This document shows, piece after piece, positions 1 through 5,539 of a DNA stretch of 45,156 bases (position 1 is its first letter; each line of letters opens with the position of its first letter). The stretch spans positions 1 to 45,156 of the forward strand of contig JAISOY010000083.1 of NCBI GenBank assembly GCA_031275285.1, written 5' to 3'. A program made the translations under genes and the position numbers. This DNA is from Bacteroidales bacterium. Its GTDB lineage: Bacteria > Bacteroidota > Bacteroidia > Bacteroidales > UBA4181. The notes below the pieces were generated by a model. The model did not search any database. It worked only from the letters and a program-made list of their open reading frames with translations, and was not told the DNA's origin.

Positions 1-1
1 A

Positions 2-793
2 GATGACGAATATACACACTGGAATTGTCCCGATACTGAATGGGTTACTACTCTTTCCGACTTGGTTAATCCGAAAAAAATAATCCAAAAGAAAGACGAT
101 TTTGATGAGGATTGGTTACGTTTACGTTATTATAAAAAATGGGAGGAACCGAAGAAAATTGGCAAGGATAAATATTTCGGACGAAGAAAAGATGTTTTCT
201 ACCTGATAGAAAGTTATTTGGTTAGAAAAACAGATAAGTTAAATATTATTAAGTATTTAGAAAATAGAAATCTTTGGGGTAGACAGATGCCTGAACGTCG
301 TGACGAACATTCATTGCTGTTTAATCGCGAAAAATTTTGGTCTCCCGCTTATCTTGATACTTACCAGAGTAACAAACGAATATGGTATACGATTCCTGAT
401 ACCTCTTATAAAGTTTTAGTTACAACCGAAGCCGCAAATGGAGGTATAGAAAATGATAAATCGGGAGCTTGCGGTTCATATCGTATTCCTTGCAAATATA
501 TCTTTGAAAAAATGCAGCTTCAATATGCACCAGTTGATGGCCTTTTAAAAAATATGGAAGGAGAAATTATTGTATTTAACCATAATCTTAGAGGAGTTCT
601 CATCAAAAAGAAGGGTTTAATTCAATTCTTAAATGAAAATAAATTGGAAATTATTTGGACGGTACTTGGTGAAAAGCTTTCATTTATTGATGATAGAAAT
701 GAAGAATCATATTTTAAAGTTCCTTGTGGCGTCTTTTGGCTGAATGAGCATGGTAAAATGGAAGGCGAATTAAAAATGTACGATAGGTATTGA
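2..793 (+). CDS. Unrecognised protein, 3' part only (cut by left edge)
   Basis: The frame is open to the first bases of the window, so only the last 263 codons are visible and the start is missing; the TTG at base 62 is internal. I do not recognise the family. The visible part is soluble, rich in charged and aromatic residues, with no membrane segment or signal. The tail carries the motif WTVLGEK followed by an acidic stretch and a short segment rich in Tyr and Gly. That motif reminds me of C-terminal domains of large bacterial STAND-type or ATP-binding proteins, but this is recollection, not proof. The stop is 3 bases before an MBL-fold hydrolase gene, so the two are almost surely co-transcribed. 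Together they are cargo of the island that ends at about base 3361. Function unknown; a defence role is only an inference from context. Confidence 0.75.
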   Translation, partial: DDEYTHWNCPDTEWVTTLSDLVNPKKIIQKKDDFDEDWLRLRYYKKWEEPKKIGKDKYFGRRKDVFYLIESYLVRKTDKLNIIKYLENRNLWGRQMPERRDEHSLLFNREKFWSPAYLDTYQSNKRIWYTIPDTSYKVLVTTEAANGGIENDKSGACGSYRIPCKYIFEKMQLQYAPVDGLLKNMEGEIIVFNHNLRGVLIKKKGLIQFLNENKLEIIWTVLGEKLSFIDDRNEESYFKVPCGVFWLNEHGKMEGELKMYDRY

Positions 794-796
794 GAT

Positions 797-1870
797 ATGG
801 AATTATATTGTTATCAGGCAGAATGTGGCGATGCCTTACGCATTAGATATATTGGGGATGACGGGAATCCGCATAATATTTTTCTTGATTCGGGATACGA
901 ACGAACATTCAGATATGTTCTTCAACAAGAAATAAATTCACTTATTGATAGTAATGAATCAATTGATTTATGGATTATTTCCCATATCCATGATGATCAT
1001 ATTGGCGGAGCAATAAAATATTCCAAATCGGTAAATGATTCGGAGACTAAAGATATAGTAAAGACTTGGTTTTATAATCCGCCTCGAAAATATTCGATTC
1101 CAAAAAACAATAATGATGATATCAGTTCGGCAAAAAGTATCCGACAGGGGGATTTGCTCTATGATTTTTTGTTACAAACCAATAAACTTCCGACATTCGA
1201 TATAACGACAAACTTATCATGCCAGAATTTATTTGGATTAAAAATGTATATTCTTTCTCCGACTTCAACCACTATAACAGAGCTTCGAGAAAAATATAAA
1301 GATGGTAGATTGTTGGTCAGGAATGAAATAGATACTATTAGCAGCACAAAGGCAGCATCAATATTTGATTATGATAGATTGTTAGAGTCTTTTGATTTGA
1401 ATAACTTTGAGGAAGATGATTCATTGGAAAACAGAAGTAGTATTTCTTTACTGTTTGAATTTGAAGATAAAAAAATTTTGTGGCTGGCTGATTCGCATCC
1501 AACAGTTGTCTATGAATCGCTATCCAAGATGGGATTTTCAGAAATCAATCCATTAATTTGTGATTTTGTCATTGTTTCACACCATGCAAGCAAAGGAAAC
1601 AATAGCAGTGAGTTATATCATATTATCCGATGTGATAACTATCTTGTCAGTTCCGATGGTGAAAATACACATTGTCTTCCAACAAAAGAAGCATTATCAC
1701 GAATTATCAGAAACCCACGCAGGGACTTGGCAATTCCTTACAATTTGTATTTCGCATACGATACTGACAATTTAAAAAGGATTTTTCAGTCTGACACGGA
1801 AAGCGTATATCGTAAATGGAATTTCAAAACAATCTATACTAAAGATAAAAGCTTGCTTTTTCGATTGTAA
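797..1870 (+). CDS. MBL-fold metallo-hydrolase
   Basis: This 357-residue protein has the metallo-beta-lactamase signature HIHDDH (His63, His65, Asp67, His68), which binds two metal ions. An upstream strand (NIFLDSG, about residues 27-33) and later metal-ligand candidates (LADSH about 230, VSHHAS about 260) complete the fold. It has no signal peptide and should be cytoplasmic. Members of this broad family hydrolyse esters, phosphodiesters or nucleic acids; the substrate here is not evident. The layout resembles MBL proteins paired with a larger unknown partner in defence cassettes (type 1 Avs systems contain such a hydrolase), but the partner is truncated and cannot be judged. The gene follows the upstream one by 3 bases and converges on the integrase gene. 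The ATG start fits the spacing. Confidence 0.85.
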   Translation: MELYCYQAECGDALRIRYIGDDGNPHNIFLDSGYERTFRYVLQQEINSLIDSNESIDLWIISHIHDDHIGGAIKYSKSVNDSETKDIVKTWFYNPPRKYSIPKNNNDDISSAKSIRQGDLLYDFLLQTNKLPTFDITTNLSCQNLFGLKMYILSPTSTTITELREKYKDGRLLVRNEIDTISSTKAASIFDYDRLLESFDLNNFEEDDSLENRSSISLLFEFEDKKILWLADSHPTVVYESLSKMGFSEINPLICDFVIVSHHASKGNNSSELYHIIRCDNYLVSSDGENTHCLPTKEALSRIIRNPRRDLAIPYNLYFAYDTDNLKRIFQSDTESVYRKWNFKTIYTKDKSLLFRL

Positions 1871-1892
1871 CACCTGCTTTTAAAAGAAAATG

Positions 1893-3188
1893 TTACACCC
1901 TGTTAAATTTATCCATTTCACTTTCTTTTAAAGCGTCAACAATTTTCACATAAGGTTTCATCGCTTTGTAATCACTATGCCCCGTCCATTTCATAATCAC
2001 TTCCGAAGGAATACCCAAATATAGCGCATTGACAATGAAAGTACGGCGACCGCAATGAGTGGTCAACAAGTCATATTTAGGATATACTTCTTCAAACCGC
2101 TCATTCCCTTTGAAATAAATGATACGCTGTGGTTCGTTGATACCAACAATTTCGCCCAATTCTTTCAGATATACATTCATTTTCACATTAGAGATTACAG
2201 GTAAGGCTTTGTCATCTTCAAAATGATAATCAGCATATTTTTCCAGAATAGCACGACTGTATTTATTCAGTTCAATTTTTAACCCGTCAACTGTTTTTTG
2301 AGTTACTACTTCAATATGGTTAGGTTTTATATCTGAACGACGCAGTTTGGCGACATCAGAATAACGTAAACCCGTAAAACAAGTAAAACAAAATACATCC
2401 CGTACACGGTCAAGATATTGTTTGGATTCGGGTAATTGATAATTGAGTAATTGCATTAGTTCTTCCCACGTTAAGTGAATTACTTCTTTAGAATTTCCGT
2501 CTGTTCCTTTAAATTTTGGTCTGAATGAATCATGAAGTGTACCTGAATAATACCCTTTCTTGTGTGCCCACCTCAAAAGCCAACGAACAAAAGCTACATT
2601 CTTACTGATTGTAGTATTACGCATACCCAAATCAAACAGGTACTGTACGAAATTTTGCAAGTCTGATTCCGAAATAGTTGAAATATCAATATCCTTGTTA
2701 AAATTAGTCAAATGCACATTCAAAGTTTTAAATTTCGCATAAGTAGAATTTGTCCAATTGTTTTGACGTCCCATTGTCTTGGTAAATTCGTCAATATAGT
2801 CGGAAATAGAGCGCTTAATCTCAATTTCAAAGTTATCATTGTCTATGCCATTCATTTTATTAAAAACGTCTCTATACTCTTGTGCAGTAGGGATATGGTT
2901 GTTAACCTCAAAAGATTTGAAAACGTCGTCCACTAATTTTTCCAATCGCTGTATTTCATTATTTATCACTGTAGCCGATATTTTCTTTTTACCATGCGTA
3001 GTCCCTACTTTACATCGTTGTGCTTCCTTAATCCATTTCGATAATTCCACACGGTAACCCACATTAAAGGCTACAATCGTATCCTTATTATACCGAATCC
3101 TCAATCTTACTTTTGCATCGGATTTGTAACCGTCTTTTTCGTTTCCTTCTTTATCCAAAAAGAACAAACATTTTCTCTTTATATCCAT
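1893..3188 (-). CDS. Tyrosine recombinase / phage-type integrase
   Basis: This 431-residue protein has an N-terminal arm-type DNA-binding region (about 1-110), a SAM-like core-binding domain (about 125-210) and a C-terminal catalytic domain. Catalytic residues are visible: Arg in TGLRYSDV, His-x-x-Arg in THCGRRTF, His in WTGHSD and the nucleophile Tyr in KPYVKI. The architecture is that of Bacteroidota integrases of conjugative transposons and genomic islands. Its 5' end lies about 155 bases from the putative ssrA attachment site, and it reads into the island, as expected for an integrase next to its att site. It probably catalyses integration and excision of the element that fills the left part of the window. 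A promoter inside an inverted repeat precedes it. No frameshift is seen, so it is likely intact. Confidence 0.95.
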   Translation of the reverse strand: MDIKRKCLFFLDKEGNEKDGYKSDAKVRLRIRYNKDTIVAFNVGYRVELSKWIKEAQRCKVGTTHGKKKISATVINNEIQRLEKLVDDVFKSFEVNNHIPTAQEYRDVFNKMNGIDNDNFEIEIKRSISDYIDEFTKTMGRQNNWTNSTYAKFKTLNVHLTNFNKDIDISTISESDLQNFVQYLFDLGMRNTTISKNVAFVRWLLRWAHKKGYYSGTLHDSFRPKFKGTDGNSKEVIHLTWEELMQLLNYQLPESKQYLDRVRDVFCFTCFTGLRYSDVAKLRRSDIKPNHIEVVTQKTVDGLKIELNKYSRAILEKYADYHFEDDKALPVISNVKMNVYLKELGEIVGINEPQRIIYFKGNERFEEVYPKYDLLTTHCGRRTFIVNALYLGIPSEVIMKWTGHSDYKAMKPYVKIVDALKESEMDKFNRV

Positions 3189-3199
3189 ATCAAAAAAAC

Positions 3200-3242
3200 T
3201 TAGTCCCTACTGTGCAAAAATAGGGACTAAAAATGAGATATG
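3200..3242 (-). promoter_or_regulatory. Integrase promoter within a 10-bp inverted repeat
   Basis: TTAGTCCCTA (3200-3209) and TAGGGACTAA (3221-3230) form a perfect 10-bp inverted repeat directly upstream of the integrase start. The 8-base -7 element TATTTTTG, read on the minus strand, occupies 3215-3222, largely in the loop between the arms. A CTTG match to the -33 element follows after about 20 bases. Placement across the promoter suggests an operator or a recombinase or excisionase arm site; the binding protein is unknown. Confidence 0.55.
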
Positions 3243-3341
3243 CAAGGACTTTTTGTGATATTTTATTTATTTGTAAAAATCATAAAAAGCTATAATACAG
3301 AGATATTTATGTGAAAATGAATTTTTATGATATTATGTGAA

Positions 3342-3361
3342 TGGAGCCGTCAGCTCCACCA
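3342..3361 (+). other. Putative attachment site: 3' end of ssrA (tmRNA)
   Basis: The sequence TGGAGCCGTCAGCTCCACCA ends in CAGCTCC plus ACCA, the 3' acceptor strand of tmRNA with its conserved U that pairs with G3. No T-arm (GGTTCGA type) lies upstream, so this is not a complete RNA gene but the duplicated end left by an integration event. The first 17 bases form a 6-bp inverted repeat with a 5-base spacer (TGGAGC, CGTCA, GCTCCA), a usual layout for a tyrosine-recombinase crossover site. The intact ssrA should lie beyond the other end of the island, outside the window. Confidence 0.55.
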
Positions 3362-3370
3362 GAAGGTAAA

Positions 3371-3420
3371 TCAAAACAAAAAACTCGCGAAATCAATGAT
3401 TTGCGAGTTTTTTGTTTTGA
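3371..3420 (+). terminator. Long-stem rho-independent terminator
   Basis: An 18-bp stem arm at 3371-3388 pairs perfectly with 3403-3420; after one bulged G it continues for five more pairs (AAATC with GATTT) around an AAT loop. The descending arm contains the T-rich stretch GTTTTTTGTTTTGA. Nothing is transcribed into it within the window. I infer it is the native ssrA terminator, separated from its gene by the island. Confidence 0.75.
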
Positions 3421-3457
3421 TACAAATAGCAAAAAATTCAAATAATAACATTCTCTA

Positions 3458-3846
3458 GGTGGCCAATTCGGTTACCTTGAAATAACAAAACTTTGGTAAC
3501 CGAATTTCATTCGAACTCAAATCGTGCTGTGAAATCACCTTTGAATTTATCCGCGACGGTTACGAAATCATCAGTGCTACGACTTGCAGGAATATAAGAA
3601 AACATCAATCACATATTATCCTGTCACACATTGTTTCGACGATCTCGAAACCGAAGGTACCCTGAAATATTACAGCAAACAATGCAACGTAATGGGCGAA
3701 ATACTACTTCATGTTATGACTATTTTACCTCCAACTACATGTAAATCAAAACTCTACCAACCTCTTCGCCTCCGAACTCGAAAACAGTTACAACAACTGT
3801 GTCTGTTCCTACATTAGGGAAATAATTAACTTAGATAGCTTTTGAT
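3458..3846 (+). pseudogene. Decayed coding remnant with several frameshifts
   Basis: No single frame is open, but consecutive stretches of protein-like sequence appear in shifting frames: GGQFGYLEITKLW (from 3458), GNRISFELKSCCEITFEF and on (3495 to about 3580), LQEYKKTSITYYPVTHCFDD and on (from 3584), SCYDYFTSNYM (about 3715) and finally a tail ending LDSF before a stop at about 3846. Each piece ends where the next begins, which suits a gene broken by small indels. I do not recognise the parent family. It lies just outside the island end and may be debris of earlier insertions. Chance is possible, since the pieces are short. Confidence 0.35.
3465..3506. repeat. 12-bp perfect inverted repeat
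   Basis: AATTCGGTTACC (3465-3476) and GGTAACCGAATT (3495-3506) are exact inverted copies separated by 18 bases. There is no T-run after it, so it is not a typical terminator. It sits at the start of the decayed remnant, close to the island end; role unknown. Confidence 0.6.
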
Positions 3847-3956: not shown

Positions 3957-4751
3957 ATGACATACAATTATTTAGATAAATATTTGGTGAAAATACGTTC
4001 GAAAGGACGTTATTCATTCACAATAAAAAAATTACAGGAGGAATTTAATGTGTCTTATCGAGCTATCAAACAGAACCTTTACAGGTTAAAATCCAAAAAT
4101 GAAATTGCACAGGTTCGTCAAGGTTTTTATGTCGTCATACCACCAGAATATTCCAAGCTGGGAATGTTGCCTCCCTACCTGTTTATCGGCGATTTGATGA
4201 AATCACTGAATAAACCTTACTACGTAGGATTGTTGTCTGCAGCTGCATTAAACGGAGCTGCACACCAGCAGCCCATGGAGTTTTTTGTTATTGTGCAAAC
4301 TCCTGCCCCACGGAGCATTAACAACGAAAAACTGAAAATTTCTTTTTTCTCAAAGAATATCTGGGAGCAGGATGATATCGTGAAGAAAACAACAGATGCA
4401 GGATATATCAACGTTTCTTCACCCGAATTAACCGCATTGGATTTATTGGCGTATACCGATAAAATAGGACTGAACAGAGCGACAACGGTATTGCAGGAGT
4501 TAGCGTCAACAATGAAGGTTTCGGCACTCTCGAAAACTGCAAAGAAATATTCTCATACGCCAGTAATTCAACGATTAGGCTACATTCTGGATAAAATATT
4601 GGGCGAAGAAAAATTGGCAGAAGCATTATTGAAAGTCCTGAATGACAGAAATGTCGTTCCTGTGTTATTATCCACTCAGAAAGAGAGAAAAGGTGAAACA
4701 GATACAATGTGGAAGGTAGTTAAAAACATGGAAATAGAAAGTGATTTATGA
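3957..4751 (+). CDS. abiEi: AbiEi-family type IV antitoxin
   Basis: This 264-residue protein has an N-terminal winged helix-turn-helix (about residues 15-65, ending with RQGFYVV) and a C-terminal AbiEi antitoxin domain containing YYVGLLSAAALNGAAHQ and SSPELTALDLL, both typical of the family. Known AbiEi proteins repress their operon and neutralise the partner nucleotidyltransferase toxin without stable binding (type IV toxin-antitoxin). The stop overlaps the toxin start in ATGA, the usual translational coupling of this pair. A palindrome in the leader is the likely autoregulatory site. The gene is full length and looks intact. It lies just outside the putative island end, in an accessory stretch. 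Confidence 0.9.
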   Translation: MTYNYLDKYLVKIRSKGRYSFTIKKLQEEFNVSYRAIKQNLYRLKSKNEIAQVRQGFYVVIPPEYSKLGMLPPYLFIGDLMKSLNKPYYVGLLSAAALNGAAHQQPMEFFVIVQTPAPRSINNEKLKISFFSKNIWEQDDIVKKTTDAGYINVSSPELTALDLLAYTDKIGLNRATTVLQELASTMKVSALSKTAKKYSHTPVIQRLGYILDKILGEEKLAEALLKVLNDRNVVPVLLSTQKERKGETDTMWKVVKNMEIESDL

Positions 4752-5539
4752 TACCCCGGAGATATATAGAAGAATGGAAAACACAAGCACCTTGGCCAAA
4801 TGACGCACAGGTGGAACAGGATTTGGTAATAGCAAGGGCTTTGGTCGAAATGTTTTCGGATGATTTGCTGAACCGCACTCTGGCTTTTCGAGGTGGGACC
4901 GCTTTACACAAGCTCTATTTGCAGCCTCAATCCCGTTATTCCGAAGATATTGACTTAGTACAAATTAACTCGGAACCGATCAATCCGATACTCAAACAAA
5001 TTCGTGAACGACTTTCTTTCTTCGGTACCAAGCGAACAGTAAAACAACACATCCACAACAACACCATCATTTACCGATTTGAGACAAGTACACAGCCCAT
5101 CATTAACATGCGGTTGAAAATTGAAATCAATACCCGTGAGCATTTTGATGTACTCGGGTTAAAACAAATTCCCTACAAAGTGGAAAACACATGGTTTTCT
5201 GGCGAATGTATGCTGACAGGTTATGAATTGGAAGAATTATTGGGAACCAAGTTGCGTGCATTGTATCAACGTCGCAAAGGTCGTGACCTGTTCGATTTAT
5301 ATTGGGCAATAGCGCATCAAAATGTCGATACCGAAAAAGTTATTCGTTGCTACAAAACTTATATGCAACATTCCGTTGATAAACCGCCCACACAAAAGCA
5401 ATTTCTTGCCAACATGGAAGAAAAGATAATTGACAAAGAATTTTTGGAGGATATTCACATCATATTGAAACCAGGTGTTGAGTATGATAATTTGGAAGCT
5501 TGGGAAGTAGTGAAAAAGGAATTGATTGAAAGAGGTTAA
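4748..5539 (+). CDS. abiEii: AbiEii-family nucleotidyltransferase toxin
   Basis: This 263-residue protein is a DNA polymerase beta-type nucleotidyltransferase. It has the GGTAL motif (residues 49-53; family GSxxL or GGTxL), the metal-binding pair SEDIDL (Asp67 and Asp69), and the conserved distal block LGTKLRALYQRRKGRDLFDL. Related toxins transfer nucleotides, for example to tRNA 3' ends, and halt growth; many act as abortive-infection phage defence. Its start overlaps the antitoxin stop by 4 bases. All key residues are present, so it is likely active. No third gene follows in the operon. The exact substrate cannot be told from sequence. Confidence 0.9.
   Translation: MIPRRYIEEWKTQAPWPNDAQVEQDLVIARALVEMFSDDLLNRTLAFRGGTALHKLYLQPQSRYSEDIDLVQINSEPINPILKQIRERLSFFGTKRTVKQHIHNNTIIYRFETSTQPIINMRLKIEINTREHFDVLGLKQIPYKVENTWFSGECMLTGYELEELLGTKLRALYQRRKGRDLFDLYWAIAHQNVDTEKVIRCYKTYMQHSVDKPPTQKQFLANMEEKIIDKEFLEDIHIILKPGVEYDNLEAWEVVKKELIERG

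Follow-up and report, generated by a model that had tools for sequence, protein, structure and literature searches.

A probable mobile island at the ssrA gene of a Bacteroidales bacterium and changes of target in its integrase family

The window, a stretch of 45,156 nucleotides that makes up one whole contig (C83) of the 5.54-Mb draft genome of a Bacteroidales bacterium (G000), appears to begin inside a mobile genetic island. Positions 1-3346 are best read as the right end of an integrated element that entered site-specifically into ssrA, the tmRNA gene, with a probability of about 0.95. The initial annotation had proposed that an island inserted into ssrA, restored the gene at its other end and left the native terminator behind, and this is borne out by a rebuilt ssrA on a second contig (C61), by seven related islands and by another genome (G017) in which ssrA leads into similar DNA. 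Insertion into ssrA is itself well known; what is added here is a map of the attachment (att) sites and the repeated switching of targets.

Under the proposed mechanism, the recombinase encoded at 1893-3188 would act on two sites, attP on the island (GGAG-CCGTCAG-CTCCAC) and the T-stem/acceptor junction in ssrA. An island-borne copy of the last 13 bases would rebuild the gene at the left end, where a terminator hairpin belonging to the island comes next, and the displaced ssrA 3' end with its native terminator would be left at 3347-3421. Before insertion, ssrA would have continued into CCAGAAGGTAAATC; the predicted empty gene is CCGTCAGCTCCACCAGAAGG, and the predicted junction of the excised circle is GGAG-CCGTCAG-CTCCAC-GATAAATATTG.

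The displaced gene end and its restored counterpart

Exact copies of the 13 bases CCGTCAGCTCCAC occur twice in the genome, at 3347-3359 of the window and at the 3' end of ssrA (C61:63390-63402), a complete, single-copy gene (C61:63009-63404; tag GENNYALAA). The displaced fragment, CCGTCAGCTCCACCA (attR; 3347-3361, forward strand), is identical to the restored gene over these 13 bp. A 20-base match to the tmRNA 3' end had initially been described; the part of tmRNA origin is shorter, and the repeat shared by fragment and gene is 13 bp, not 20. The CA that follows the 13-mer in the window completes the ancestral encoded CCA, and the GGAG preceding the 13-mer belongs to the island rather than to tmRNA. 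The longer string at 3343-3361, GGAGCCGTCAGCTCCACCA, has no second match genome-wide with up to three mismatches allowed. As had been noted, no T-arm precedes the fragment, and neither ARAGORN nor Rfam calls a tRNA or tmRNA at 3343-3361. The restored gene ends in CACGA and the fragment has CACCA at the equivalent place; this change from CCA to CGA indicates that the encoded CCA of ssrA was lost on insertion and that CCA must be added enzymatically. Many Bacteroidota ssrA genes are without an encoded CCA in any case.

On C61, the DNA behind ssrA is of island type and is not the window's terminator. A complete ssrA followed by a direct repeat of 20 bases or more had been expected; the gene and the island DNA after it are there, with a repeat of 13 bp. 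To the left of ssrA stand purH and an MreB-like gene (named from its translation). After CAGCTCCAC, the contig continues with GATAAATATTGACAATCAGC, a hairpin containing GGGACTAATAGTCCC, a 324-aa open reading frame (ORF) and a DUF3853 gene, and stops 1.46 kb downstream of ssrA. Its TTGAxAATCAG stretch, with a hairpin in the next ~60 bp, recurs in most of the family's other islands at their left ends, at both ssrA and tRNA-Ser, and DUF3853 genes are also carried by the islands of Odoribacter laneus and Flavobacteriales UBA1937.

We infer that C61 and C83 carry the two ends of one island. The gene and the fragment lie on different contigs, the left end of the window is a contig break, and the island interior is absent from the draft. 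Joining by contig overlap from C61 towards C83 found no continuation from the contig ends; the end of C61 matches C223 and C20 at only 91-94%, these being other DUF3853 copies. The two ends are tied together without a physical join by a GGACTA/TAGTCC word, present in two copies on the window side (inverted, at 3201-3206 and 3224-3229 within 3199-3231) and in three copies within the 60 bp that follow ssrA on C61; a related island (G106) has the same arrangement. These words look like arm-type integrase sites. Given that they are common to left and right ends, that the genome holds only two exact core copies and no third fragment, and that the integrase is intact, with its start at the distance from the core (158 bp) that intact islands also show, it is unlikely that an older or different island, in a tandem array or a decayed element, left the fragment as a scar and that the C61 element is not the one that ends in the window. 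Such a history would fit the location of the ends on different contigs, the other DUF3853 copies on C20 and C223, and the status of ssrA as a hot spot where tandem islands occur.

Behind the fragment stands a hairpin (3370-3421, forward strand) whose stem of 22 bp pairs 3370-3391 with 3400-3421; it greatly exceeds shuffled sequences in stability (z = -7.1). No ORF of at least 90 aa ends into it, in agreement with the earlier description of a long terminator that no gene feeds. In G017, a member of the Bacteroidota from the same order but another family (not the same genus), ssrA is followed by 13 bp and then by DNA 73% identical to window positions 3379-3507, comprising the hairpin and the flank beyond; this is the single clear matching locus in that genome. 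The suggested comparison with relatives lacking the island yielded this one empty-site-like case: because the G017 gene runs directly into a homologue of the window's hairpin and flank, the window hairpin is, on this comparison, the native terminator of ssrA, now stranded. Genomes of the same genus gave no information as empty sites, the DNA downstream of their ssrA being unrelated to the window flank. Hairpin similarity alone was set aside as weak evidence, as look-alikes in two genomes (G028 and G029) lie on contigs other than that of ssrA; the argument therefore uses G017, where the match begins 13 bp behind ssrA and continues far beyond the hairpin. A terminator-like hairpin also stands right behind the fragment in five of six evaluable relatives.

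Other features were observed near this site or during the ssrA comparison. The flank contains an inverted repeat, AATTCGGTTACC ... GGTAACCGAATT (3465-3510), partly conserved behind the G017 gene, and an AbiEi/AbiEii toxin-antitoxin pair (3957-5539) lies just outside the island, flanking attR. In another genome (G004), two different tmRNA matches lie on contig ends (C207 and C208), representing a duplicate, a second copy or contamination.

Integrase, predicted crossover site and related islands

The adjoining tyrosine recombinase (1893-3188, reverse strand; 431 aa) is complete, as the initial annotation had stated, with two Pfam domains (Phage_int_SAM_5 and Phage_integrase) and the full catalytic R-K-H/R-H-Y set (R275, K298, H378, R381, H404 and Y413). 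Its start codon lies 158 bp from the crossover site, and a search against solved structures gave no sequence match. Homologues were gathered from genomes of the order, viral contigs and species genomes. Eight of them, the window's included, have a CTCCAC-type core, and in all seven others ssrA shares a contig with the integrase and stands upstream of it in the same orientation, giving islands of 7.2-20.9 kb in the order ssrA, island, integrase, fragment. These relatives belong to Odoribacter lunatus, O. laneus YIT 12061, an uncultured Prevotella, Flavobacteriales UBA1937, Parabacteroides sp. PF5-9, G106 (full core CCTCCGGCTCCAC, read from locus L083) and G038. Neither an intact ssrA with its own terminator and no repeat nor homologous loci without a link to ssrA were found, outcomes that would have spoken against the original proposal.

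The direct repeat in these islands measures 13-16 bp except in Parabacteroides. In that strain (L260/L261) it is an exact repeat of 217 bp that includes the ssrA end and the terminator, so that an identical terminator remains at each ssrA end.

In each of the eight islands at ssrA, the block shared with the gene begins immediately behind GAG, at a distance of 153-179 bp from where the integrase starts. This constant edge of identity points to a predicted 7-bp overlap, or strand-exchange region, CCGTCAG (3347-3353, forward strand), at the T-stem/acceptor junction; the left edge of ssrA identity falls here and at the equivalent place in the seven relatives. The island-side core half-site is TGGAG (3342-3346, forward strand), of which GAG is kept in all eight islands. 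Across the 143 distinct regions upstream of integrase homologues, the motif GAG-YC-N5-CTCC-RC is present in 64 and in approximately none of the shuffled sequences, nearly always 157-160 bp from the integrase start. We infer a functional reading of GGAG-[CCGTCAG]-CTCC, in which two core half-sites would enclose the overlap, a stretch running from the T-stem end into the acceptor stem. The 6-5-6 inverted repeat previously put forward as a crossover site (TGGAGC-CGTCA-GCTCCA) is present, and it corresponds to this same site when the innermost base pair on each side is assigned to the arm; the relatives favour the reading with a 7-bp overlap. Crossover at the T-stem/acceptor junction is known as the J sublocation of tDNA islands (PMC4383910).

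The relatives also bear on whether the resemblance to ssrA could be fortuitous, with the 13-mer and the inverted repeat unrelated to the gene and the hairpin an ordinary terminator. At 13 bp the match is short, and several one-mismatch copies of the 13-mer are present in the genome, but the seven related islands agree in where the core lies with respect to the integrase, in where identity sets in on the left and in the terminator downstream, and the window flank matches the region downstream of the G017 gene. Coincidence is accordingly regarded as extremely improbable.

Choice between tRNA-Ser and ssrA

Most family members whose core can be recognised are of the CTCCGC type and are placed at tRNA-Ser; in eight loci the far end was found to hold the tRNA-Ser gene, the remaining assignments being by core sequence only. 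A predicted overlap of the tRNA-Ser type is CCTCTCT. On the integrase tree, ssrA targeting accounts for seven label changes, at least six of them on well-supported branches, and the integrase of the window falls together with a pair of CTCCGC-type relatives (L099 and L161). The tree, built by a quick method and with long branches that leave some placements unsure, suggests about six or seven separate origins of ssrA targeting in this family.

The closest pair comes from UBA1937 (L182 and L197). Its two integrases are identical at 422 of 429 positions (98%) and have almost the same attP arms, yet the islands terminate in different genes, one in ssrA (CCTCCAACTCCAC) and one in tRNA-Ser (CCTCACTCTCCGC). 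The latter sequence occurs at C11:4495 and C11:26525, the second copy lying inside a tRNA-Ser gene, and the two attP sites differ essentially from the overlap onward. This suggests that the DNA core, rather than the integrase protein, sets the target, UBA1937 being a metagenome-assembled genome in which a binning error is possible. Covariation of the island-side arm with the target, in the form of complementary arms with a 5-bp spacer, was considered and rejected: an alignment on GAG shows one and the same left arm in tRNA-Ser and ssrA islands, and the fixed element is a 7-bp overlap. The family may thus read a fixed GAG / CTCC framework, with the 7-bp overlap and the acceptor copy picking tRNA-Ser or ssrA and retargeting occurring by exchange of ~13 bp, a model for which the odds are judged to be about even.

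With repeated switches between tRNA-Ser and ssrA under the same geometry, once with almost the same protein, the family offers a natural test of how integrases choose their targets. If the overlap alone sets the target, such integrases could be retargeted through a change in attP only.

Cargo, element class and known systems

Two cargo genes lie at the start of the window, both on the forward strand. The first (2-793), truncated where the contig begins, encodes the C-terminal portion of an Avs2-like STAND anti-phage protein (PADLOC Avs2, 3.8e-94, covering the last ~260 of 1576 profile positions); its NCBIfam Avs2 match (3.8e-67) is below the full-length cut-off because only the end of the protein is present. 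The second (797-1870) encodes an MBL-fold hydrolase of the LmuA/RTasMBL/Avs1a kind (PADLOC LmuA 7.7e-71, RTasMBL 6.9e-45 and Avs1a 9.7e-35; Pfam Lactamase_B 5.4e-5). Together they form a defence operon (2-1870) whose 5' part is on a missing contig, and may represent an unusual Avs/MBL pairing. Among the other ssrA islands, that of O. laneus carries an Avs2-like protein and a viperin-like gene, and that of G106 carries type I restriction-modification and AbiE. Several big cargo proteins of ssrA islands had no PADLOC match.

The islands of O. laneus and UBA1937 share DUF3853, AAA_25, a Toprim primase and a Mob_Pre relaxase. By analogy with these relatives, the G000 island, whose interior is missing, is probably an integrative mobilizable element with anti-phage defence genes. 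Integrase relatives in IMG/VR contigs would be in keeping with a prophage or phage satellite instead, but this seems improbable: the parts examined (the G000 interior being absent) hold no phage structural gene, annotated relatives carry a Mob_Pre relaxase, a primase and DUF3853, and the cargo is of defence type. Those related islands with a recognised relaxase carry Mob_Pre (MobV type), which argues against an NBU1-type MobP element. Among known systems, the Bacteroidetes integrative and mobilizable elements NBU1, NBU2, Tn4555 and Tn5520 (PMC5704250) resemble the present family in their tyrosine integrase and, for the related islands, in primase and relaxase. NBU1, NBU2 and Tn4555 carry MobP, in contrast to the MobV-type Mob_Pre of this island's relatives, and Tn5520 is MobV.

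The tmRNA gene is the most enriched target of tDNA islands in Islander (PMC4383910). Independent arrival at this target is known for several integrase subfamilies. Those islands share with this one an intact target gene at one end, a displaced 3' fragment at the other, a tyrosine integrase at an end and crossover at site J, but the G000 ends lie on separate contigs of a draft. In Escherichia coli, the tmRNA locus is a defence hotspot (hotspot 9; PMC10121019) where mobile elements at ssrA also carry anti-phage systems; it differs in phylum and host range, and the likeness drawn here concerns locus and defence role. No description of this Bacteroidota island was found in the literature searched. 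The present comparison places a mobile, often defence-carrying family of elements at ssrA across Bacteroidota, with exact att sites for eight islands. It also documents that islands can strand a native terminator and are able to remove the encoded CCA of a tmRNA gene. Further DUF3853 copies in the source genome (C20:846-962 and C223:14252-14408) probably belong to other elements of the same class.
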